From Flavobacteriales bacterium (GTDB taxonomy: Bacteria; Bacteroidota; Bacteroidia; Flavobacteriales_C; GCA-002722245), in the NCBI GenBank assembly GCA_002722245.1, contig PBLA01000021.1:62001-126000 (forward strand): a stretch of DNA of 64,000 bases, in the 5' to 3' direction. Within the stretch, counting starts at the first letter, position 1. Each line of letters begins with the position of its first letter. Positions 44,193-63,977 of the stretch are shown piece after piece. The translations under genes and the position numbers were made by a program. The notes beneath the pieces are model-generated. The model did no database searches, had not been told where the DNA came from, and saw only the letters and a list, made by a program, of their open reading frames with translations.

Positions 44193-44849
44193 CTATCGAA
44201 CAAGTTCAATAATGCCTTGTTGTTCAAATAAATACCCTGTTCTATATGTTCCTGAAATGTAGTAGTTGTAGCTCCCAGAAGGAAGTTGATTGCCTTCAAA
44301 GGATCCATCAAATAATGTGTTATAAGACTCACTCTCAAACAATACATTATTCATATCGTCACTAACTCTCACATAAAAGTCAGAAACGCCTACAAGTATA
44401 GGGAACCAGGTGTCAAATTGATTGTCTGCATCAGGGGTAAACGAAGTAGGCACATCAATATAAGTATCACAATATTCAAGCGTTATGTAAATAGAAGAAT
44501 CTTTTTCGCCTACACCAGGAGTTTCTTGCTCAATATCCAGGCGATAGTTCCCTCTTAAAGAGGTAGTAAATATGGAATCTGATGATAAGAATTTATATTC
44601 TTCGTTACCAACAGAGCGATACCATTCGTGTTTCGATACAGAAGGTTCATAGCCAACTAATTTCACAAAGTTATTTTGATAAAAACATTCACGAATATCC
44701 GTTGAATTAGACAAAACATGAATAGGAGTTGTAGTCGCTTCAAAAATTGGTGATAATTTTTTTGCTTCCACCGGATTATCCTTCAAATTATCGTTTGAGC
44801 ATGAAAAAAAAAGCAAAAAAATATGGAAAAGAGGAATGAGCTTTTTCAT
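44193..44849 (-). CDS. Lipoprotein with a T9SS type-B-like (CHU_C) C-terminal domain
   Basis: A 218-residue protein. The signal MKKLIPLFHIFLLFFSC gives an acylated Cys17. The C-terminal 85 residues follow the CHU_C order: VPTSFTPDADNQFDTWFPI, then FYVRVSDDMNNVLFES, LPSGSYNYYISG and a closing GIIELVR. CHU_C domains normally direct soluble proteins through T9SS; here the same module is on a lipoprotein. The start codon overlaps the stop of the preceding barrel/anti-sigma-like gene by one base. It is probably the surface or periplasmic partner of that barrel. Confidence 0.8.
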   Translation of the reverse strand: MKKLIPLFHIFLLFFSCSNDNLKDNPVEAKKLSPIFEATTTPIHVLSNSTDIRECFYQNNFVKLVGYEPSVSKHEWYRSVGNEEYKFLSSDSIFTTSLRGNYRLDIEQETPGVGEKDSSIYITLEYCDTYIDVPTSFTPDADNQFDTWFPILVGVSDFYVRVSDDMNNVLFESESYNTLFDGSFEGNQLPSGSYNYYISGTYRTGYLFEQQGIIELVR

Positions 44850-46603
44850 TAAAATTTATAGTTAACCCCTCCAGATAAATATCCTTTTTTTTCTGTGAAG
44901 TTATTTATGTTTATTGTATTTCTTTGGAGGTTTTTGGTGTTTTTTCTGTTGTATGTAAATTGAAATCTAATTCGATTAACATGCTGGTATCCAACAGTTA
45001 TATTTTTATTTAAAAGACTTTCATATTCTAATGCCGAAAAAAATTGATTGTTGTATGTAAGACCAATTCCCGGACTATATGAATTAAATAATTCGTGTTC
45101 ATATTTGAGTAATAGGCTTGTTTTGAATTTTGCTATTTCAGGAGTATGAATTGCGGAGACAATTGTATGTTTTTGATTGGTTAATTCATGTTCGTTAGTG
45201 AAACTGTATGCTAACATATTATTTCTATTGTACCCTATGTAAAAGCTTCGATGATTTAAGAAAACACCAAAATCCATTGTAGTATATTGCTCTTGTTGAG
45301 ACTTGAAGCTACCAAGGTTAGTTTGATGGATGTATTCACCAATAAGTGATTGTTCTCTTAACGTTAACTGATTTACTGCTAATTGATCACTATTGAAGTT
45401 TACTGCCAAACCTGTTTTTAAATCAAGTTGATTTAAAATATTTTTAGTAAAACTAATCGAAACATTTCCTTTTCGGTTGTTCCAGTTTTCCTTCAATTCA
45501 TACTGATAAAACCCTCCAATTGCGAAATAAGGGTTTAATCGTCGCTCAAAAGCAGCAATATATGTTAAGGGTTGAACAAAATTGATTTCACCTATTTGAT
45601 TTTGGTCAACATCATTAATTTCCCAATTATTGTGGTAAAAGAATGATGCATTATTATTGGCATACAATCCCGTAATGGAGGAATTTTCCCAAAAGTTTAA
45701 CCAAATTGTTGCTCCAGGATGGATTTGATAACTGCCTTTTGATAAATGATTCAAAGAAATTTTATGAATTGAAAGATCAAGAGAAGTACAATATTCTTGA
45801 ATAGGGAAATTTTCAAGCTGAATAAGTAGGTCGTAAGGATACTCTTGTGAGTTATTCGAGGTATTTATCAAGTCTACATCATTTTGCTTTTGAATACCAA
45901 CAGGAATGAATTCTTTAGTTGTCCTTGTATTTTGGGGAGTGAAAGAATTCTGTACGTTTTCTTCATGATTTTTTGGTGGTAGGTTATTATCCAATGAAAT
46001 CACATCAACGTTAGAGGGTATTGTTATAGGGTTAATTATTTGATTTATTTCAGAGCTCGTATTTTTATTGTGGGTTTTTGAAGTGATCACAGGATTTTCA
46101 GAATCCTTTAGCAAAGAATCAATTCCTAGTCCAGTACCTATTAGAATTAATATCGCCGCAGCCCCTCTTAACATCTTTTTCATAATACTTCGTCGGCGAA
46201 GGGTTTTTTCCAAAGCAGCCCAATGAGAGGGGTTATAATTTAATTTCCCATTATTGAAAACAGATCTTAAAATTCGTTCTAATGGAGTTAACTTGGACAA
46301 TTCTAACTGCTCAACTAAATTTTCCCAATGCTGTGCATTATATTTAAATGTGTCACTATTTAGCTTCTCTTTAAGCTTTTGTTCAAAATTTGATTTAGAA
46401 TTGTACTTGTCGTTGAATTCGTCCCATGCATTGGGGGGAGTTTCCACGGAACCTTCATTCAATTTGTCATTAATCTCATTTTCAAAAGGGGTATGAGGAG
46501 GGTTAGAAGATAGATTTTGGTTCATCTTCTCCCAGTCTGAAGGGTTGTAATTCATCTCACCTTCTTGTAGTTTCTTTCTTATTTCGTCCTCAAAGTCTCC
46601 CAT
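44849..46603 (-). CDS. Dual-membrane-spanning anti-sigma-like protein (repeats, inner-membrane helix, PorP/SprF-like barrel)
   Basis: A 584-residue protein in three parts. Residues 4-134 hold four copies of a motif FExxIxxKLxxGxxxYNPxxWexL, with tryptophans at 24, 60, 93 and 128. A basic stretch (RRRSIMKKMLR) precedes one helix (about 147-166). An Asn/Ser-rich periplasmic linker (170-265) leads to a beta-barrel-like region from about 270, ending in the outer-membrane-type GGVNYKF. The barrel resembles PorP/SprF of T9SS. It starts five bases after an ECF sigma gene, so an anti-sigma role is inferred. This architecture matches the dual-membrane-spanning anti-sigma (Dma) proteins known from Bacteroides. 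Confidence 0.75.
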   Translation of the reverse strand: MGDFEDEIRKKLQEGEMNYNPSDWEKMNQNLSSNPPHTPFENEINDKLNEGSVETPPNAWDEFNDKYNSKSNFEQKLKEKLNSDTFKYNAQHWENLVEQLELSKLTPLERILRSVFNNGKLNYNPSHWAALEKTLRRRSIMKKMLRGAAAILILIGTGLGIDSLLKDSENPVITSKTHNKNTSSEINQIINPITIPSNVDVISLDNNLPPKNHEENVQNSFTPQNTRTTKEFIPVGIQKQNDVDLINTSNNSQEYPYDLLIQLENFPIQEYCTSLDLSIHKISLNHLSKGSYQIHPGATIWLNFWENSSITGLYANNNASFFYHNNWEINDVDQNQIGEINFVQPLTYIAAFERRLNPYFAIGGFYQYELKENWNNRKGNVSISFTKNILNQLDLKTGLAVNFNSDQLAVNQLTLREQSLIGEYIHQTNLGSFKSQQEQYTTMDFGVFLNHRSFYIGYNRNNMLAYSFTNEHELTNQKHTIVSAIHTPEIAKFKTSLLLKYEHELFNSYSPGIGLTYNNQFFSALEYESLLNKNITVGYQHVNRIRFQFTYNRKNTKNLQRNTININNFTEKKGYLSGGVNYKF

Positions 46604-46608
46604 AGTGG

Positions 46609-47166
46609 TTAACCTGCTAATTTCTCTACCTTTTCTTTTAGCATTTTACGTAAGTTACCTTTCGCTTTCGCTAAATTGGATTTCGATGTTCCTATACTTA
46701 TTCCTAAAGAATCGGAAATTTCTTGATGAGTAAAGCCATCAACGATATACATATTAAATACACTTCTATAAGCAGGACTTAAAAGTTGAACCATTTGTAT
46801 GAGATCGGAAAAACTTACATGTTCTAATATGCCCGCATCTTCTTCTTGATCTACCTGAATACTTCCATGCTTATCATCCAATTCAACCATTTGGTTGTTT
46901 TTTTTATTTTTTCGAATATGATCAATACAAGTATTTACCATAATTCTACGAACCCATCCTTCAAACGAGCCCTGTTTGCCGTATTTGGGTAAATTCTTAA
47001 ATACCTTAATGAAAGATTCCTGAAACATATCCAGCGCTTCATCATGACCATTTGCGTAACGCATGCAAACTGCTAACATCTTTCCATAAAAATGCTCATA
47101 CAAAGATTGCTGAGCGCGACGATCTCCGTCAATACAACCCTGAATTATGAGGTCTTGGTTCAACAT
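46609..47166 (-). CDS. ECF-type RNA polymerase sigma factor
   Basis: A 185-residue sigma factor with only regions 2 and 4. Region 2 has LYEHFYGKMLAVCMRYANGHDEALDMFQESFIKVF and FEGWVRRIMVNTCIDHIRK; region 4 has LLSPAYRSVFNMYIVDGFTHQEISDSLGISIGTSKSNL. It is the first gene of a three-gene operon with a membrane-spanning anti-sigma-like protein and a lipoprotein. It should redirect RNA polymerase to a dedicated regulon, possibly including its own operon; the target promoter is not known. Confidence 0.93.
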   Translation of the reverse strand: MLNQDLIIQGCIDGDRRAQQSLYEHFYGKMLAVCMRYANGHDEALDMFQESFIKVFKNLPKYGKQGSFEGWVRRIMVNTCIDHIRKNKKNNQMVELDDKHGSIQVDQEEDAGILEHVSFSDLIQMVQLLSPAYRSVFNMYIVDGFTHQEISDSLGISIGTSKSNLAKAKGNLRKMLKEKVEKLAG

Positions 47167-47845: not shown

Positions 47846-48139
47846 TTACTTTTTAATCAATAGCATTACCTGCTGATTACCCGAATCATCATATATTTTA
47901 ACAAAATACCTTCCAGGTGATAGATACGATATATCGATGGATTGGTTAATTTGTAAGCTAGTGTTTTCGGTAAACAATTTACTGCCAAGGAAATCATAAA
48001 TTTCAATGCACTTGATGTTTTCAACTCCATTTATAGTAAGGTTATTGTGAGCAGGATTGGGAAAAAGGTTAGCCTCCCCAGCATTGACACTAACATGAAT
48101 GCCAATTAGGAAAGCAAAAATGAATAAAAGTCTTTTCAT
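47846..48139 (-). CDS. Cargo-less secreted T9SS type A sorting-domain protein
   Basis: From ATG at 48139 the protein is 97 residues: a signal peptide (MKRLLFIFAFLIGIHVSVNA) and then directly a T9SS type A sorting domain (LFPNPAHNNLTINGV, IEIYDFLGSKLF, IDISYLSPGRYFVKIYD, VMLLIKK). An upstream ATG at 48169 adds ten polar residues before the signal and is unlikely. The whole mature protein is the sorting signal, with almost no cargo. It could be a degraded remnant of a larger T9SS protein or a functional decoy or occupancy regulator. Confidence 0.75.
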   Translation of the reverse strand: MKRLLFIFAFLIGIHVSVNAGEANLFPNPAHNNLTINGVENIKCIEIYDFLGSKLFTENTSLQINQSIDISYLSPGRYFVKIYDDSGNQQVMLLIKK

Positions 48140-48286
48140 AATAACGGTGTGTTTATTAGTATAACACAATATAAATGAAAAGTAACATCATTAAATAAAC
48201 CAATTACACGAAACGCGGATATTTAACATATTATTGTAAATCAGTACTTATTTTAACGTTTTTTAGATAACTGAATATATGCCAAC

Positions 48287-54189: not shown

Positions 54190-57100
54190 TTAATGTTCCA
54201 AACACCACTTACGGGCATTTTCAAATGCTTCTAACCAGGGTGTTACTTCATCGTTTCTGTCAGCAGGATAGTTACCCCAATTCCATGGGAATATTGAACG
54301 CTCACAGTGTGGCATCATCACTAAATGACGTCCGTCTGTGGAGGTCATGATTGCTGTATTGTAGTCTGATCCGTTTGGATTTGCAGGGTAGGCGGAGTGA
54401 CCATATTTTCCTACGATGTTATATTCTTGCTCTGCGTATGGTAAATTGAACTTTCCTTCTCCATGAGCAGCCCAAATTCCTAATGTTGATCCTGCTAATG
54501 AACCTAGCATTACAGAGTTGTTTGGTTGGATTTCAACGCTCGTAAAGGTACATTCGAACTTATGCGAGTCATTATGTAGCATCTTTGGCTTTTCTTCATG
54601 ATCAGGATTAATTAATCCTAACTCAATGAATAACTGACAACCGTTACAAACACCTAAGCTTAAAGTGTCTTCCCTAGCGAAGAAGTCTTTAATGGCCTTG
54701 TTTGCTTTTTCGTTATACAAAAATGCTCCAGCCCAACCTTTTGCGGATCCTAATACATCCGAGTTAGAAAATCCTCCTACTGCAGCGATCATTTGAACAC
54801 CTGTTAAGTCCTCTCGACCAGTAATTAAGTCAGTCATGTGAACATCCTTCACATCAAATCCTGCTAAGTAAAGTGAGTTGGCCATTTCTCTTTCAGAGTT
54901 TGACCCTTTCTCTCTAATTACAGCAGCAATTGGTCTTTTTCCCGTGTAGTTTGGTTTAATACCCGAAAAAGCTTCGTTGAATTTGAAGTTTAATGCCTGT
55001 TTTTTGTAATTGTCAAAACGCAGAGTAGCTTGTGCCTCTCCTGATTGTTTTTTGTCTAATAAGTATGACGTTTCGTACCAGATGTCTCTTAATTGCGAGA
55101 TATGGAAGTCGTTACTCCAGTCACCATTCTTCACTTTTACAAAGTCACCATCAACAGCTTTTCCAATAATGTTGTACTTAACACCTGCAGCTTTTAATGC
55201 TGCTTCAACTGCATCTGCTTCAACCGACTGGAATACTAACCCAGCATTTTCAGCAAATAATAATTTAATTGAGTCCGTTTCACCTAAACCGGTTAAGTCA
55301 ACTTCAACCCCTAATTTAGTATCCGCGAAACACATTTCTAAAAGTGCAGTGATTAAACCACCAGCAGAAACATCATGACCAGCAGTTAATAATCCGTCCT
55401 TAATTAATCTCTGAACAGCGTTGAATCCCTTGGCGAAAGCAACATCGTCCTTGATAGAAGGAGCGTTGTTTCCTAGTTTGTTTAACACTTGAGCGAATGA
55501 GGAACCTCCTAGTTTAAAATCGTCATTTGATAAGTTGATGTAGAATACTTTGTTACCTGCTTTTTTTGTAAAAACTGGCTCAACAACTTTTTGGATATCA
55601 TCACAGTGTCCAGCAGCTGAGATAACAACTGTACCTGGACTTATTACTTCCATATCCTTGTACTTTTGCTTCATACTTAATGAGTCCTTACCAGTTGGTA
55701 CGTTGATTCCTAGGTTGATTGCAAATACGGATACAGCTTGAACTGCCTGATATAGTCGAGCGTCCTCGCCTTCATTTTTACATGGCCACATCCAGTTGGC
55801 TGAAAGGGATATAGATTTTAAGTTTTCTTTTAGTGGTGCCCAAACAATATTAGTTAACGCTTCGGCGATGGAATTTTTAGAACCAGCAACGGGATCGATA
55901 ATTCCCGAGACAGGTGAGTGACCAATCGAATTTGCAATACCTTCTTTTCCATTGTAATCAAGAGCCATTACACCAACATCATTTAGTGGTAATTGTAATG
56001 GTCCTGCACATTGTTGTTTAGCTACTTTTCCAGTTACGCAACGATCTACCTTATTGGTTAGCCAATCTTTACATCCAACTGATTCAAGTTTTAGTACAGC
56101 ACCAGTGTATTCTAGAATGTTATTTAAATCATACTCTATTTCAGCGTAATTTCTTACGACTGTTTTATCTGTCATGATTGTTTTTGGAGAGGAGCCAAAC
56201 ATGTCGTTTAATTCTAAATCCATTGGTTTTTCACCCGTGGTTGATGACTCAAAGGTGAATTTACCATCACCAGTAACTTCCCCAACCATATACATGGGTG
56301 ATCGCTCTCGATCAGCAACTTTTTTTAACGCGTTTAAATGCTCATCTTTAATCACTAATCCCATTCTTTCCTGGGATTCATTACCTATAATTTCTTTAGC
56401 AGATAGCGTAGGATCTCCAACCGGTAATGCATCTAATTCAATACGTCCTCCTTTATTTTCAACTTCTACAAGTTCGGATAGGCAGTTTAAATGCCCACCT
56501 GCACCATGATCATGAATTGAAATGATTGGATTGTTTCCAGTCTCAATCATTCCTCGAATTGCATTCATGGCTCTTTTTTGCATTTCGGGATTACTTCTTT
56601 GGATTGCATTCAGTTCTATACCACTAGAGAATTCTCCTGTATCAGCTGAGGAAACAGCTGCTCCTCCCATTCCAATACGGTAATTTTCTCCTCCAAGTAA
56701 AATTACTTTATCTGTCTTGTTCGGAACATCTTTAAGTGCTTCATTTTCTTTTCCAAAACCTATACCTCCTGCCTGCATGATAACTTTATCAAATCCTAAC
56801 TTTCGAGCGTCTTCCTCATGCTCAAATGTTAACACGGATCCTGTGATAAGAGGTTGACCAAATTTATTTCCAAAATCTGAAGCGCCATTTGAAGCTTTGA
56901 TTAAGATATCCATAGGTGTTTGATACAGCCAATCCCGTTCTTCCATCCCTTTTTCCCATGGTCGATTCTCGTTTAGGCGAGAATAGGACGTCATATATAC
57001 CGCTGTACCTGCTAAAGGCAAGGAACCTTTTCCTCCTGCTAGTCGATCGCGTATTTCACCTCCAGAGCCTGTTGCAGCTCCATTAAAGGGCTCAACAGTT

Positions 57101-57858
57101 GTAGGGAAGTTATGTGTTTCTGCTTTTAAAGAGATAACAGAATCAATCTCTTTCACTTGGTAGAAGTCTGGCTTATCCGCCGACTTAGGAGCAAACTGAT
57201 CAATTTTAGGACCTTTTACAAACGCAACGTTATCGCTGTATGCCGAAACGATTGAGTTTGGATTTTCTTGAGAAGTCTTTTTGATTAATTTGAATAAAGA
57301 AGTTGGTTTCTCTTCACCATCGATAACAAATGTTCCATTAAAAATTTTATGTCGACAGTGCTCTGAGTTTACCTGAGAAAATCCGAAAACTTCTGAATCA
57401 GTTAACTTTCTACCTAATTTCTTTGCTAATCCATCCAAGTATTCAACCTCTTCTGGGCTCAATGCTAACCCCTCCTGTTGGTTATATACTTCGATATCAT
57501 CAATCTCTAATACCTTTTCTGGCTCAACGTTAATGTTGTACAATTCCTGATCTAAACCAGAGAACTTGTGCTGTAACATTGGATCGTAATCCTTGCTGTC
57601 TGCTGCAATTGCTTCAAATTCTTCAATTCTAACAATACCAGCAACACCCATGTTTTGAGTGATTTCAACAGCATTGGTACTCCAAGGAGTAATCATTGCT
57701 GCACGAGGACCAACAAAAGTCCCTTCAATCGAGCTCCCTTCGATCGCTTCCACGCGACCAAAAAGCCAGTTTAATTTTAAAATATCATCACTTGAAATTG
57801 CTTGGGCAGTTTGTACTGCAAATACCTTTTGAGAAGGGTTTCCAAAGAATGTAATCAT
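54190..57858 (-). CDS. purL: Phosphoribosylformylglycinamidine synthase (single-chain)
   Basis: About 1222 residues from ATG at 57858, the normal length of large PurL. An open frame continues to 58125, but the extra 89 residues do not resemble PurL, and a perfect TACTTTTG promoter element lies at 57878-57885, inside that extension. ATP-binding blocks (LKAETHNFPTTVEPFNGAATGSGGEIRD, SIHDHGAGG) precede a C-terminal class I glutaminase with the catalytic Cys in LGVCNGCQLF and His in WAAHGEGKF. It makes FGAM from FGAR, glutamine and ATP. Confidence 0.96.
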   Translation of the reverse strand: MITFFGNPSQKVFAVQTAQAISSDDILKLNWLFGRVEAIEGSSIEGTFVGPRAAMITPWSTNAVEITQNMGVAGIVRIEEFEAIAADSKDYDPMLQHKFSGLDQELYNINVEPEKVLEIDDIEVYNQQEGLALSPEEVEYLDGLAKKLGRKLTDSEVFGFSQVNSEHCRHKIFNGTFVIDGEEKPTSLFKLIKKTSQENPNSIVSAYSDNVAFVKGPKIDQFAPKSADKPDFYQVKEIDSVISLKAETHNFPTTVEPFNGAATGSGGEIRDRLAGGKGSLPLAGTAVYMTSYSRLNENRPWEKGMEERDWLYQTPMDILIKASNGASDFGNKFGQPLITGSVLTFEHEEDARKLGFDKVIMQAGGIGFGKENEALKDVPNKTDKVILLGGENYRIGMGGAAVSSADTGEFSSGIELNAIQRSNPEMQKRAMNAIRGMIETGNNPIISIHDHGAGGHLNCLSELVEVENKGGRIELDALPVGDPTLSAKEIIGNESQERMGLVIKDEHLNALKKVADRERSPMYMVGEVTGDGKFTFESSTTGEKPMDLELNDMFGSSPKTIMTDKTVVRNYAEIEYDLNNILEYTGAVLKLESVGCKDWLTNKVDRCVTGKVAKQQCAGPLQLPLNDVGVMALDYNGKEGIANSIGHSPVSGIIDPVAGSKNSIAEALTNIVWAPLKENLKSISLSANWMWPCKNEGEDARLYQAVQAVSVFAINLGINVPTGKDSLSMKQKYKDMEVISPGTVVISAAGHCDDIQKVVEPVFTKKAGNKVFYINLSNDDFKLGGSSFAQVLNKLGNNAPSIKDDVAFAKGFNAVQRLIKDGLLTAGHDVSAGGLITALLEMCFADTKLGVEVDLTGLGETDSIKLLFAENAGLVFQSVEADAVEAALKAAGVKYNIIGKAVDGDFVKVKNGDWSNDFHISQLRDIWYETSYLLDKKQSGEAQATLRFDNYKKQALNFKFNEAFSGIKPNYTGKRPIAAVIREKGSNSEREMANSLYLAGFDVKDVHMTDLITGREDLTGVQMIAAVGGFSNSDVLGSAKGWAGAFLYNEKANKAIKDFFAREDTLSLGVCNGCQLFIELGLINPDHEEKPKMLHNDSHKFECTFTSVEIQPNNSVMLGSLAGSTLGIWAAHGEGKFNLPYAEQEYNIVGKYGHSAYPANPNGSDYNTAIMTSTDGRHLVMMPHCERSIFPWNWGNYPADRNDEVTPWLEAFENARKWCLEH

Positions 57859-57877
57859 TACGCTGAAATTTAAGGTG

Positions 57878-57885
57878 CAAAAGTA
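57878..57885 (-). promoter_or_regulatory. -7 promoter element of purL
   Basis: The minus strand reads TACTTTTG, a perfect TAnnTTTG, 19 bases before the ATG at 57858. It supports the shorter purL start. Confidence 0.6.
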
Positions 57886-58211
57886 CGAAATGGGAGTGGG
57901 AAGAGGAAAGTGGGAAGAGGAATTTTTTTTGGACTTATGAACAGAGTTTCTTTTGATTTGGCGGTAGATTACGTCTTGGATATTAGATTTATTTAAAGTG
58001 ATTAGAAATCCGTTTTGTTTATTTGCTGGCCGAAAATAGGAGTGTAGTTGTTTATGGTGGACTGCCTCTATCTTATTAACTAATTTAAGCTTTGAAACAA
58101 TTTTGTAATTTACAACTAATTTCATCTTCTATTAAATACCCAAATCATAATTTCTAAGATTATGGTTGATATAATGTTTAGGTTGACATTACAAGTAAAA
58201 GTGATTTGTAA

Positions 58212-58530
58212 ACAGGTTTGATTTGCACAACATATATTGTGCCGTCATTTACGTTTTATGTATCAAATGTATTTACACCTAACGAGGAGGGATCAATGAT
58301 TCATTCACCCTAGAAGGAACAGATTGGCAATTTTATTATTACAACTTTACAATTTGTTATAGATGGGGAGAATTATTTTATGAATCAAGTACTTTAGAAG
58401 AAACTTGGGATTGTGCTTATTTAGGAAATCTAGTCCAAACTGTTACTTATGTTTGGATAATTAATTTTAGAGACATATTATTGATAATAAACGACAAACT
58501 TTTAGGGGGTATGGGTCTTTGTTTCGATAG
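58212..58530 (+). pseudogene. Frameshifted remnant of a T9SS type B (CHU_C) domain
   Basis: Read in three successive frames, the plus strand spells a CHU_C domain. SNVFTPNEEG (from 58263) is followed after a one-base loss by INDSFTLEGTDWQ and RWGELFYES, then WDCAYLGNLV and TYVWIINFRD; after a second shift comes DNKRQTFRGYGSLFR and a stop at 58530. These match the family order FTPNxDGIND, RWG, WDG, GxY and FRGHVxLxR. Two frameshifts, a missing start and substituted residues show it is broken. It sits in an otherwise empty gap of about 760 bases between purL and the propeller gene. No cargo part is recognisable upstream. Confidence 0.75.
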
Positions 58531-58621
58531 TCTATTATTGCGCAAGTGCTAGTTATAAAAAAGTTAACCTCTGTAGTGGCAAATTGTCATATACCACTAA
58601 ATTACGAATTGCCTTTTGGGC

Positions 58622-59713
58622 TTATTCATTAGATTGCTTAAAAGCAAAACTACTTGGGATAATTCCTGTTTTAAACTCATCAATTAAAACGCCGTCTTGA
58701 TTATATCTATAAACTTTACCTTTCTCACTGTAGTCAACGGCATCTGAGATGAATATTTCATGGTTGATTGGGTTAATTGAAATTCCATTAATTCCACCTG
58801 AGCTACCAACTGTGTAAGGAGATTTAATTAATAATTCGAGCGTTGTATCCACCAAAGATGCAGGTATTCTATATACATCGTGATTAATGAAATACAATGT
58901 GTCTTGATTTTCATTTATAATTAAATCTCCAGGACTTTCATCGAGTTCAAATTCTTTAATGAAAAGTTGAGCTTTTGAACTCAAATCATAACATTGTAAG
59001 GCCCCTTTGACATGATCATAGCTAGAGCCTTCAAAGCCGCCATCACTTAATATCCATAATCGATCTTGGTTGTCTATTACCATAGAGTTGGGTTGACTTA
59101 CAACAGTAATAGAATCTATTAATTGATCGGTTTCAGAATTAATAAAGAGAATTTTGTTGTCTCTGCTCCAGCAATTAACAATAACGTATTTCTTCCAAGA
59201 AATCATTTTTTCTGAGCTATGTTGTAAGAATTGAGAGTTGCCATTATTCAGGTTGATTGAGCCAATCACCGATTTTGTTTCTGGATTGATTATTGAGATT
59301 GCTTGAGCGTATAAATCTGATACATACGCTTTTTCATCCGATAAGAAATGGATGTGTCTAGGAGAGGTTAGGCCTGTGATTTTACCTTTGAACGTAAAGC
59401 TGTCGATGTCCATTATTTGAATTTTACCACTATTATTCATCACAATATAGGCTAGATTGTCCTTGATCGTAATAGATTGAGCAACATCTCCTAATCTGAT
59501 TCCATTTGCTTTGTAAAAGATATCGTTAACTACCTTTGAACTATCAAAGTCATAAAAAGACAATGATGCATTATCGGCCATGAAGTTTCCTTCGTTACCA
59601 ATAAAAACTCCTGAATAAGTTGACGTATTAAAACTCTCTTGATCCCAAAGAAGATTGTCGTCCATACAACTTAAAAATGTGAGTATGATTGATATGACCA
59701 CAGTAATCTTCAC
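58622..59713 (-). CDS. Beta-propeller surface lipoprotein (YncE/BtuG-like)
   Basis: A 363-residue protein with lipobox FLSC (acyl-Cys 16), then seven-bladed-propeller-type repeats such as HIHFLSDEKAYVSDLYAQAISIINPETKSVIGSINL and SMVIDNQDRLWILSDGG. It overlaps the TonB-dependent receptor gene by four bases, in an operon led by a cobalamin riboswitch. BtuG of Bacteroides thetaiotaomicron is a propeller lipoprotein that captures vitamin B12 and hands it to BtuB; the same role is inferred here. Confidence 0.82.
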   Translation of the reverse strand: MKITVVISIILTFLSCMDDNLLWDQESFNTSTYSGVFIGNEGNFMADNASLSFYDFDSSKVVNDIFYKANGIRLGDVAQSITIKDNLAYIVMNNSGKIQIMDIDSFTFKGKITGLTSPRHIHFLSDEKAYVSDLYAQAISIINPETKSVIGSINLNNGNSQFLQHSSEKMISWKKYVIVNCWSRDNKILFINSETDQLIDSITVVSQPNSMVIDNQDRLWILSDGGFEGSSYDHVKGALQCYDLSSKAQLFIKEFELDESPGDLIINENQDTLYFINHDVYRIPASLVDTTLELLIKSPYTVGSSGGINGISINPINHEIFISDAVDYSEKGKVYRYNQDGVLIDEFKTGIIPSSFAFKQSNE

Positions 59714-61758: not shown

Positions 61759-63684
61759 TTATTTGATTATCAATTTTTGAGTTGATGAACCAATCTTAAC
61801 TTGATAAATTCCTGGAGCTAAACTAGAAACATCCATTCTAGTATTGTTTAAATAGTTGTTTTGTGTTAATACAACTTGACCGTTTGAGCTATAAATAATA
61901 ACGTCAACGGCTACACCGTTTTGAATTCCTTCAATTAAAAAGTTATCTATAGCTGGGTTAGGGTATAGTTTAGCGTTAGCAACAATTTCTTCTAAAGAAT
62001 TACCGTTAGAAACTTCAATACTGATTGTATCTAAAATAGTTTGACCATTTGACTTAATTTCAACAATTAAATCAGCAGTTCCTGATAAACTGTCATTAAA
62101 TGTGATTGATAGTTCATTGTTAGTTATTTCAGCTGAAAATAAAGAACTATCTGAGCTTTTAATCGAGTATTCAATTAAATCATCATCATTGTCTGCATCA
62201 CTATACCATCCAGTTAAGTCTATAACAGTATCGATTGCTTCTTGACTAGCTGTTACGTCTGGAATAGATAAGTTTGAAGTAGGAGAGAAGTCTTTTGTTA
62301 CATTAATGTTATCAAAAGCAAAATATGCAGGAGTATTCATTCCCCAATCTCCATTGTCCGATGAGCTTAATGCAAAGTTTAATTCGGTTACAGCTCCTAA
62401 AGAAGTTAAGTCAACATATCTCCAATTAGTTACGATGTAATCTTCAGAATTATCATCAAACCTAAAATCAGCTAAATAGAAGTTTACTGTGTCTTCTGTA
62501 GCTTCTCCATTTAATTGAGTTCCCCAGATTTTAAGTAAGAAGTAATCTTTATCATTCCCTGATTCTCCACCAAACTTTTTTGCAAAGGAATCCCCTTGTT
62601 GCATTGAACGTGTAGCGTAAGTAGAGTTTGTAACATACATTCCATTTACTTTATGTGCCCCTCCGTTTGTAAAAAAAGCAGTTTTGTCAGAACCGTTACA
62701 AATCCCGTAAGTGTCACCAATGCTATCAATTCCACTTGCTGTTATTGCGCTTTTATCGTTAGCCCAACCAGCTGTAGTGTCATCTTGATGATTTGATGCA
62801 GCGAAACCATTCCAGAAGCCTGTATTAGAGTAGTTAAACGATAATAACCCAGATTCAAATGAAGAATCACCATCTTCAGAAGTACCATTGAAAACACCAT
62901 TCTCTCCTAATGCAACATCAGCAAGATTTATGATTTCATTAGGTTCTTCTTTTTGATTAATAACCCCAATACCATCTAAATCGAATCCCGATGAAGCATA
63001 AGGTGTACTGTATGGATTATTGATTATGTTTCCAGCTGTATCTAAAGAAGCATATTGCGAATCGATTGTTCCAATAACATCAATTAACTTAACAAATCTG
63101 ATATTGTTTACATCTAAATTTGGGCTGTTTTTTAACTCTTCTAAATCAAAAGGAGTTCCGTAGCCAGCTATATCTTTACCTGCAAGGTTGTTTACTTCTT
63201 TAGGATCGAATCCTTCGAAACCACCAAGTTGAAGTGTGTCTTGAATTAACGAGTGAGATGGGAATCTTGTGAAATTGATACCATCGGAGCTTACCTCCAC
63301 AAAAGCAAGTTCACCGAATGTAGCGCCCTCCCATTCGAACCCATTTTCAAATACAGCAAAATCAGGACCGTTACCATTAACAATAGGTTTTGAAAAAGTT
63401 AAAGTTGCCCATCCAGCATCTCCTAAACTAACTACATCTGTTGAATTACCTGATGCGTTGCCTAAAGCGTTTGATGCATGCCCAAAAGATGCAGCGTTTG
63501 TGTCGTTATCCATTGCTGTAGGATCTGCAATGTCAACTAATCCTCTGTGGATTTCAATTCCTGTTGCCCAAGATTTAATAATACTTGAGTCTTTACTGAT
63601 GGCTGAAAATCCATCATCATAACCAGTAGCCAATGCATTTATCCCGAATGCAATATAAGCTAAAGTGAGTACATTTTTTTTCAT
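61759..63684 (-). CDS. T9SS-sorted DUF4465 surface protein (BtuH-like)
   Basis: A 641-residue protein. The signal peptide is MKKNVLTLAYIAFGINALATG. Residues 50-240 form a surface domain with FAVFENGFEW, FVEVSSDGINF, NVNNIRFVKLIDV-type and FDLDGIGVIN motifs. A second domain (about 255-475) matches DUF4465 (GFWNGFAASNHQDDTTAGWAND, YVTNSTYATRSMQQGDSFAKKFGG, YFAFDNI). A Ca-binding-like Ig stretch and a T9SS type A sorting domain (LYPNPAIDNFLIEGI to IYQVKIGSSTQKLIIK) end the protein. DUF4465 occurs in the B12-binding BtuH proteins. First gene after the cobalamin riboswitch; a surface B12-binding role is inferred. Confidence 0.85.
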   Translation of the reverse strand: MKKNVLTLAYIAFGINALATGYDDGFSAISKDSSIIKSWATGIEIHRGLVDIADPTAMDNDTNAASFGHASNALGNASGNSTDVVSLGDAGWATLTFSKPIVNGNGPDFAVFENGFEWEGATFGELAFVEVSSDGINFTRFPSHSLIQDTLQLGGFEGFDPKEVNNLAGKDIAGYGTPFDLEELKNSPNLDVNNIRFVKLIDVIGTIDSQYASLDTAGNIINNPYSTPYASSGFDLDGIGVINQKEEPNEIINLADVALGENGVFNGTSEDGDSSFESGLLSFNYSNTGFWNGFAASNHQDDTTAGWANDKSAITASGIDSIGDTYGICNGSDKTAFFTNGGAHKVNGMYVTNSTYATRSMQQGDSFAKKFGGESGNDKDYFLLKIWGTQLNGEATEDTVNFYLADFRFDDNSEDYIVTNWRYVDLTSLGAVTELNFALSSSDNGDWGMNTPAYFAFDNINVTKDFSPTSNLSIPDVTASQEAIDTVIDLTGWYSDADNDDDLIEYSIKSSDSSLFSAEITNNELSITFNDSLSGTADLIVEIKSNGQTILDTISIEVSNGNSLEEIVANAKLYPNPAIDNFLIEGIQNGVAVDVIIYSSNGQVVLTQNNYLNNTRMDVSSLAPGIYQVKIGSSTQKLIIK

Positions 63685-63799
63685 AATTAATATTTTATAT
63701 TAGTTAATAATTATGATGTGATATAAGAGGAGAGTACTTCCGTATGGAAGCTGAATTACATCAGAAAACTCGTTCACCGCAAGCACATCGTTTATTTAT

Positions 63800-63957
63800 G
63801 ATTGGCAGGTATTCTGACTTACTTCCATATTTTAAGCGCCTTCCCCTTTATTAAAGAGTGGCTATTTGCTTAATTTTTTAAAAGCTTACAGCAGCGGGAA
63901 CTGTTGCCGAATCTCACAGCATTCCCTTTTAATGGTTAACACAAAAGTGTTCCCCAA
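63800..63957 (-). ncRNA. Cobalamin riboswitch
   Basis: On the minus strand the conserved cobalamin-riboswitch blocks occur in order: AAAAGGGAATGCTGTGAG, then TTCCCGCTGCTGTAA, then the B12-box-type AGCCACT (63857-63863), GGGGAAGGC, and AAGTCAGAATACCTGCC ending near 63804. It lies between a perfect promoter element and the DUF4465-TonB receptor-propeller operon, so cobalamin should reduce expression of all three. The 115 bases between the aptamer and the first ATG contain a short CTTCC/GGAAG hairpin (63738-63751) without a T-run, suggesting control of translation rather than simple termination. Confidence 0.92.
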
Positions 63958-63969
63958 CCAATTTAGTTG

Positions 63970-63977
63970 CAAAAGTA
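63970..63977 (-). promoter_or_regulatory. -7 promoter element of the cobalamin riboswitch operon
   Basis: The minus strand reads TACTTTTG, a perfect TAnnTTTG. The transcript would start near 63964, a few bases before the riboswitch begins. The -33 region falls at the window edge. Confidence 0.65.

Follow-up and report, generated by a model that had tools for sequence, protein, structure and literature searches.

A Probable Pseudogene of a Large Type B (CHU_C) T9SS Surface Protein Between purL and a Cobalamin Operon in a Flavobacteriales Genome

A stretch of 409 bases on the forward strand (58122–58530) of the window, i.e., the 64,000-nucleotide piece of a Flavobacteriales contig analysed here, can be read with high confidence as a pseudogene, namely what is left of the 3′ end of a gene that encoded a large, multi-PKD, type B (CHU_C) T9SS surface protein. 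It combines homology to an intact protein family with disabling lesions, and consists of the end of a PKD domain that runs without interruption into a CHU_C domain. A functional type B substrate would have a start, a signal peptide, a passenger and a tail in a single frame, and no such arrangement is present. Since it has four in-frame stops and two frame shifts and lacks a usable start, the remnant is predicted to yield no product; it would have died through loss of selection and presumably has no function now. It is an ordinary dead gene on which no open question depends, but it points to a loss of large surface proteins from this genome alongside the retention of many.

The Locus

As the first-pass annotation stated, the remnant lies between purL and a cobalamin operon. 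The purL gene truly starts at 57858 although its open reading frame extends to 58125 (PurL proteins of relatives share the same first residue). On the other side, the operon is encoded entirely on the reverse strand and comprises the genes for a DUF5074 protein, a BtuB-like receptor and a DUF4465 protein, together with a cobalamin riboswitch (RF00174) at 63787–63977. The latter was the sole RNA element found, and it is located away from the remnant. Coordinates are collected in Table 1.

Table 1. Features at the remnant locus (window coordinates) and small type B proteins elsewhere (coordinates within the named loci)
Feature	Location	Strand	Remarks
purL (phosphoribosylformylglycinamidine synthase)	54190–57858	−	Left neighbour, divergent from remnant
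Intergenic DNA upstream of remnant	57859–58121		No detectable trace of lost gene
Remnant, last 45 codons of PKD domain	58122–58256	+	In-frame stops TAA 58155, TGA 58167, TAG 58179, TAA 58209
Remnant, CHU_C / T9SS type B sorting domain	58257–58530	+	Two frame shifts, near 58289 and 58480; own stop codon at 58528–58530
89-codon open stretch holding middle of CHU_C	58283–58549	+	Unlikely gene
DUF5074 beta-propeller-like protein	58622–59713	−	Right neighbour, convergent with remnant; last gene of cobalamin operon
Small signal-peptide-like plus type B protein	L149, 2036–2368	−	
Small signal-peptide-like plus type B protein	L164, 3838–4224	−	
Small signal-peptide-like plus type B protein	L165, 3428–3829	+	
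Small signal-peptide-like plus type B protein	L166, 3076–3468	+	
Small signal-peptide-like plus type B protein	L167, 3119–3493	+	
Small signal-peptide-like plus type B protein	L168, 2814–3191	+	

The CHU_C Domain

No intact reading frame exists in the region, and the CHU_C domain is spelled jointly by three forward frames, as had been claimed from the letters alone. One frame shift falls near 58286–58295 and the second near 58471–58492. When the frames are joined across both shifts, the translation scores 47 bits against CHU_C (PF13585; positions 3–83 of 86) and 39.1 bits against TIGR04131 (positions 3–80 of 85), each above the respective cut-off of 27 and 35 bits. The middle of the domain is recognizable even in one frame. 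For instance, hmmscan of the 89-codon open stretch alone gives 30 bits for CHU_C (E = 5.7e-7, above the cut-off) and 22.2 bits for TIGR04131 (below it), and a TIGR04131 search of the organism's whole genome finds window positions 58289–58474 (G000:C22:120289-120474) at E = 6.2e-4 and 21.3 bits. The open stretch itself is unlikely to be a gene, since it holds no ATG, GTG or TTG before 58481.

For type B tails, PMC12618676 describes five conserved motifs within the final 100 amino acids. Here, 18 of 22 conserved columns are kept, spread over the three frames, which compares with 17 to 22 in 20 intact copies from the same genome; the four replacements are P to S, D to E, N to Y and G to C. The last motif and the stop are as normal as first described: the remnant ends G-Y-G-S-L-F-R followed by TAG, and thus has the C-terminal position of a type B domain. 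Over its approximately 91 codons, the CHU_C part contains no in-frame stop.

The first-pass annotation had proposed a frameshift-aware search, and this gave a clear result. In a frameshift-tolerant alignment with the tails of 20 own-genome copies (those with loci, from 33 TIGR04131 matches listed at E ≤ 10), the remnant reaches a best score of 140, to L011, with 36 of 83 aligned positions identical. One hundred dinucleotide shuffles yield a mean of 35 (standard deviation 4) and a maximum of 50, and the reverse strand scores 33. The 12-kb locus L148 (G000:C3:10000-22000), which covers L011, the closest own-genome copy, contains six undetermined bases. The sub-threshold single-frame TIGR04131 score might be taken to favour a resemblance arisen by chance in AT-rich intergenic DNA. 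That reading is refuted by these shuffles, by the independent matches to two HMMs and by the PKD shuffles and class matches described below, and its probability is practically negligible.

The PKD Part

The remnant had been thought to start at 58212. In fact, it starts at about 58122, because the end of a PKD domain precedes CHU_C. These 45 codons lie in the same frame as the CHU_C part, and no gap is needed to align them with the closing stretch of the PKD domain located before CHU_C in intact relatives from the class. When the CHU_C part sets the register, comparison with 31 homologues (eleven class relatives included) gives a best score of 60 and a top-five mean of 55, neither of which is reached by any of 5000 shuffles, while the other two frames score only 9 and 12. 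Omission of the last 8 residues leaves the best score reached by 3 of 5000 shuffles and the top-five mean by none. Against own-genome copies only, the best score is 23 with stops penalized at −1 (reached by 19 of 3000 shuffles) and 13 with stops at −4 (reached by 328 of 3000).

Continuity of the two domains is also evident in the class search, where the PKD part is aligned together with CHU_C in intact proteins, and the same intact proteins score higher once it is added to the query (79.1 instead of 68.3 bits in G018, 80.2 instead of 64.2 bits in G032). In Pfam, PKD_4 is the sole family reported (13.3 bits, E = 0.086), below its cut-off. A free local search scores 53 with stops at −1, compared to a maximum of 52 in 40 shuffles, which is not clearly significant, and 44 with stops at −4, compared to a maximum of 61 in 40 shuffles. 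With stops at −6, the upstream part returns nothing (score 40, with 42 the highest of 30 shuffles). The PKD part is thus significant solely in the register set by the CHU_C part. The idea that no trace of a passenger remains was considered and rejected, as the PKD register becomes visible when the frame is read beside intact relatives. A register-fixed, stop-tolerant comparison of this kind can bring to light a further decayed domain missed by ordinary searches.

All three kinds of stop codon occur in the PKD part, so a recoded stop is disfavoured. The distribution of stops is uneven, with four in 45 PKD codons and none in about 91 CHU_C codons (chance 0.011, calculated post hoc). Such a distribution is atypical for uniform neutral decay; it is the sole odd feature of the remnant and is taken here as chance. 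That the CHU_C half is better kept by virtue of still being useful, e.g., as a silent recombination donor or a separately read fragment, is very unlikely.

A different explanation attributes the lesions to errors of sequencing or assembly in a gene that is intact. The assembly comprises 34 contigs at 95.2% completeness, and the undetermined bases mentioned above lie in the region of a paralogous gene. However, such errors are improbable for a remnant of 409 bases with as many as four stops and two shifts, the window contains no N, and the neighbouring genes are intact. Moreover, the remainder of a protein of >1000 amino acids lacks both a coding frame and homology here, with 8 to 10 stops in each of the three forward frames of 57859–58256. 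Assembly error is therefore regarded as extremely unlikely, and a pseudogene as the proper reading of the locus.

The Parent Protein

Matches at E ≤ 1e-17 occur in 47 of 395 genomes of the class, the organism's own included. The closest intact relative (G189 C101:3941-4300; E = 1.1e-24, 88.5 bits) shares 40% identity over query positions 1–120 and lies in a 1447-aa frame. The next four (G323, G032, G018 and G215) are in open frames of 1223, 1258, 1787 and 1718 aa. Because these nearest relatives are long frames (1223–1787 aa), all five of which end in PKD-CHU_C, the parent is very likely to have been a large secreted protein, as the first-pass annotation supposed. Small proteins composed of a signal peptide plus CHU_C were considered as the parent and rejected; six of them score 65–121, versus 155–178 for five large proteins compared.

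The last PKD domain, the F-x-F-Y linker and CHU_C of the remnant align without gaps to multi-PKD surface proteins with a PKD-CHU_C end, yet these proteins are intact elsewhere, whereas the remnant is reduced to a few hundred bases with stops and shifts. Similarly, it has the sequence motifs, the C-terminal position and the G-x-x-x-L-x-R-stop ending of CHU_C (PF13585) and TIGR04131 domains but, unlike them, has neither a reading frame nor a usable start. SprB of Flavobacterium johnsoniae and similarly large type B substrates also carry a type B tail (sections of PMC9143113 and PMC12618676), and the same sections tie type B tails to PorP/SprF shuttles. By analogy with this family, the T9SS and a PorP/SprF-type shuttle would have received the protein by way of its CHU_C tail when the gene was alive. 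In contrast to SprB-type substrates, the remnant is expected to have no product, and no PorP/SprF gene adjoins it (the nearest match in the window is at about 44930–45676).

A literature search returned no paper joining CHU_C, pseudogene and type IX secretion, and none joining Bacteroidetes, pseudogenes, type IX secretion and frameshift, which is not proof of their absence from print.

Origin of the Remnant

The original proposal was that a large secreted protein gene once lay here and was lost, except for its conserved 3′ end. The decayed type B domain and the probable nature of the parent stand. The conserved 3′ end is not the sole survivor, since the 45 PKD codons persist as well, with their four stops. 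As for a whole gene at this place, such a gene is plausible, and its front would have been lost or have decayed beyond recognition; the relatives examined have no CHU_C gene there, 57880–58121 is unrecognizable, and a 3′ copy that moved in fits equally.

The stretch 57880–58121 was searched for a further remnant and none was found: the best score is 30, a value matched by 16 of 60 shuffles (6 of 60 for the mean score), and extension of the remnant into this stretch was rejected on these scores. Boundary repeats as a deletion scar are likewise unsupported, as they comprise just a 26-base pair of repeats with 77% identity, a 15-base pair with 87% identity and a 14-base tandem. The tandem, AGTGGGAAGAGGAA, is perfect, with two copies at 57895–57922 in the gap separating the remnant from the start of purL, and is absent elsewhere in the window at ≤1 mismatch (expected 0.05).

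Synteny was compared in two sets of genomes by means of open frames, an approach blind to dead copies in relatives. Five of 10 family genomes, the organism's own being one of each count, have a full-length match to the PurL N-terminus. In all four of the others, the gene next to purL differs and no CHU_C frame occurs within the fetched flanks; the purL junction is therefore lineage-specific. In a set of 80 named purL loci, of which 76 are covered for at least 3 kb upstream of purL, none has an upstream CHU_C frame on the strand divergent from purL. On the purL strand, such a frame lies upstream in three loci (L094, L100 and L106); L094 has one downstream as well. Three of the 80 loci (L068–L070) apparently derive from the same genomes as the family set, given their identical neighbour proteins. 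The nearest of the named loci, L068, has 86% PurL identity. For a unitary pseudogene, relatives would carry the intact orthologue in the corresponding position, and this was found in none of the four family genomes and none of the 80 purL loci. The comparison with relatives that was suggested at the outset thus did not uncover a CHU_C gene divergent from purL in any relative examined.

These results fit loss in place and arrival of a fragment alike. In the latter case, just a 3′ fragment was ever here, dead on arrival through partial duplication or rearrangement, e.g., when the cobalamin operon joined purL. The lineage-specific junction and the lack of a detectable remnant in 57880–58121 agree with such an arrival, but no donor is apparent; the best own-genome copy has 80% DNA identity over 51 bases (20 copies compared), which does not exceed the identity between intact own-genome copies. 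The site also accords with a former whole gene, since the remnant diverges from purL and converges with the operon on its other side. Arrival of a fragment is quite possible, if short of probable, and concerns the origin of the pseudogene rather than its kind. Gene conversion from a live copy was also considered, and comparison with the 20 own-genome copies gave no evidence of it.

Type B Proteins Elsewhere in the Genome

T9SS type B export exists in this genome, as judged by the presence of SprA, 11 matches to the PorP/SprF family and 23 matches to TIGR04131 over the cut-off (among the 33 listed at E ≤ 10). CHU_C (PF13585) has 35 matches at E ≤ 0.001.

Several arrangements of type B genes were observed along the way. 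A reverse-strand set at 44193–47166 encodes an ECF sigma factor (46609–47166), a 584-aa protein (44849–46603) and a 218-aa CHU_C protein (44193–44849). The 584-aa protein has an N-terminal part and an apparent membrane segment fused to a PorP/SprF barrel (PF11751, 5.8e-12), and the set joins a T9SS shuttle barrel with its own type B partner (cf. a section of PMC13088901). Small proteins that seem to consist solely of a signal peptide and an entire type B domain are found in the organism's own genome and five family genomes (Table 1); these were chosen for their short open frames, and the type B domain was scored in L149 and L167. The gene next to the one in L149 matches PorP/SprF weakly, and those in L166–L168 come after a BtuB-like receptor, a DUF4465-like protein and a second gene. 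A type A counterpart occurs in the window at 47846–48169 (reverse strand), where a 107-aa protein has little beyond an apparent signal peptide and a type A domain (TIGR04183, 45.6 bits, residues 35–106). Finally, the 641-aa DUF4465 protein at 61759–63684 (reverse strand) resembles a fusion, as its residues 39–250 and about 262–490 match two separate genes that are adjacent, in reversed order, in L166, L167 and L168.
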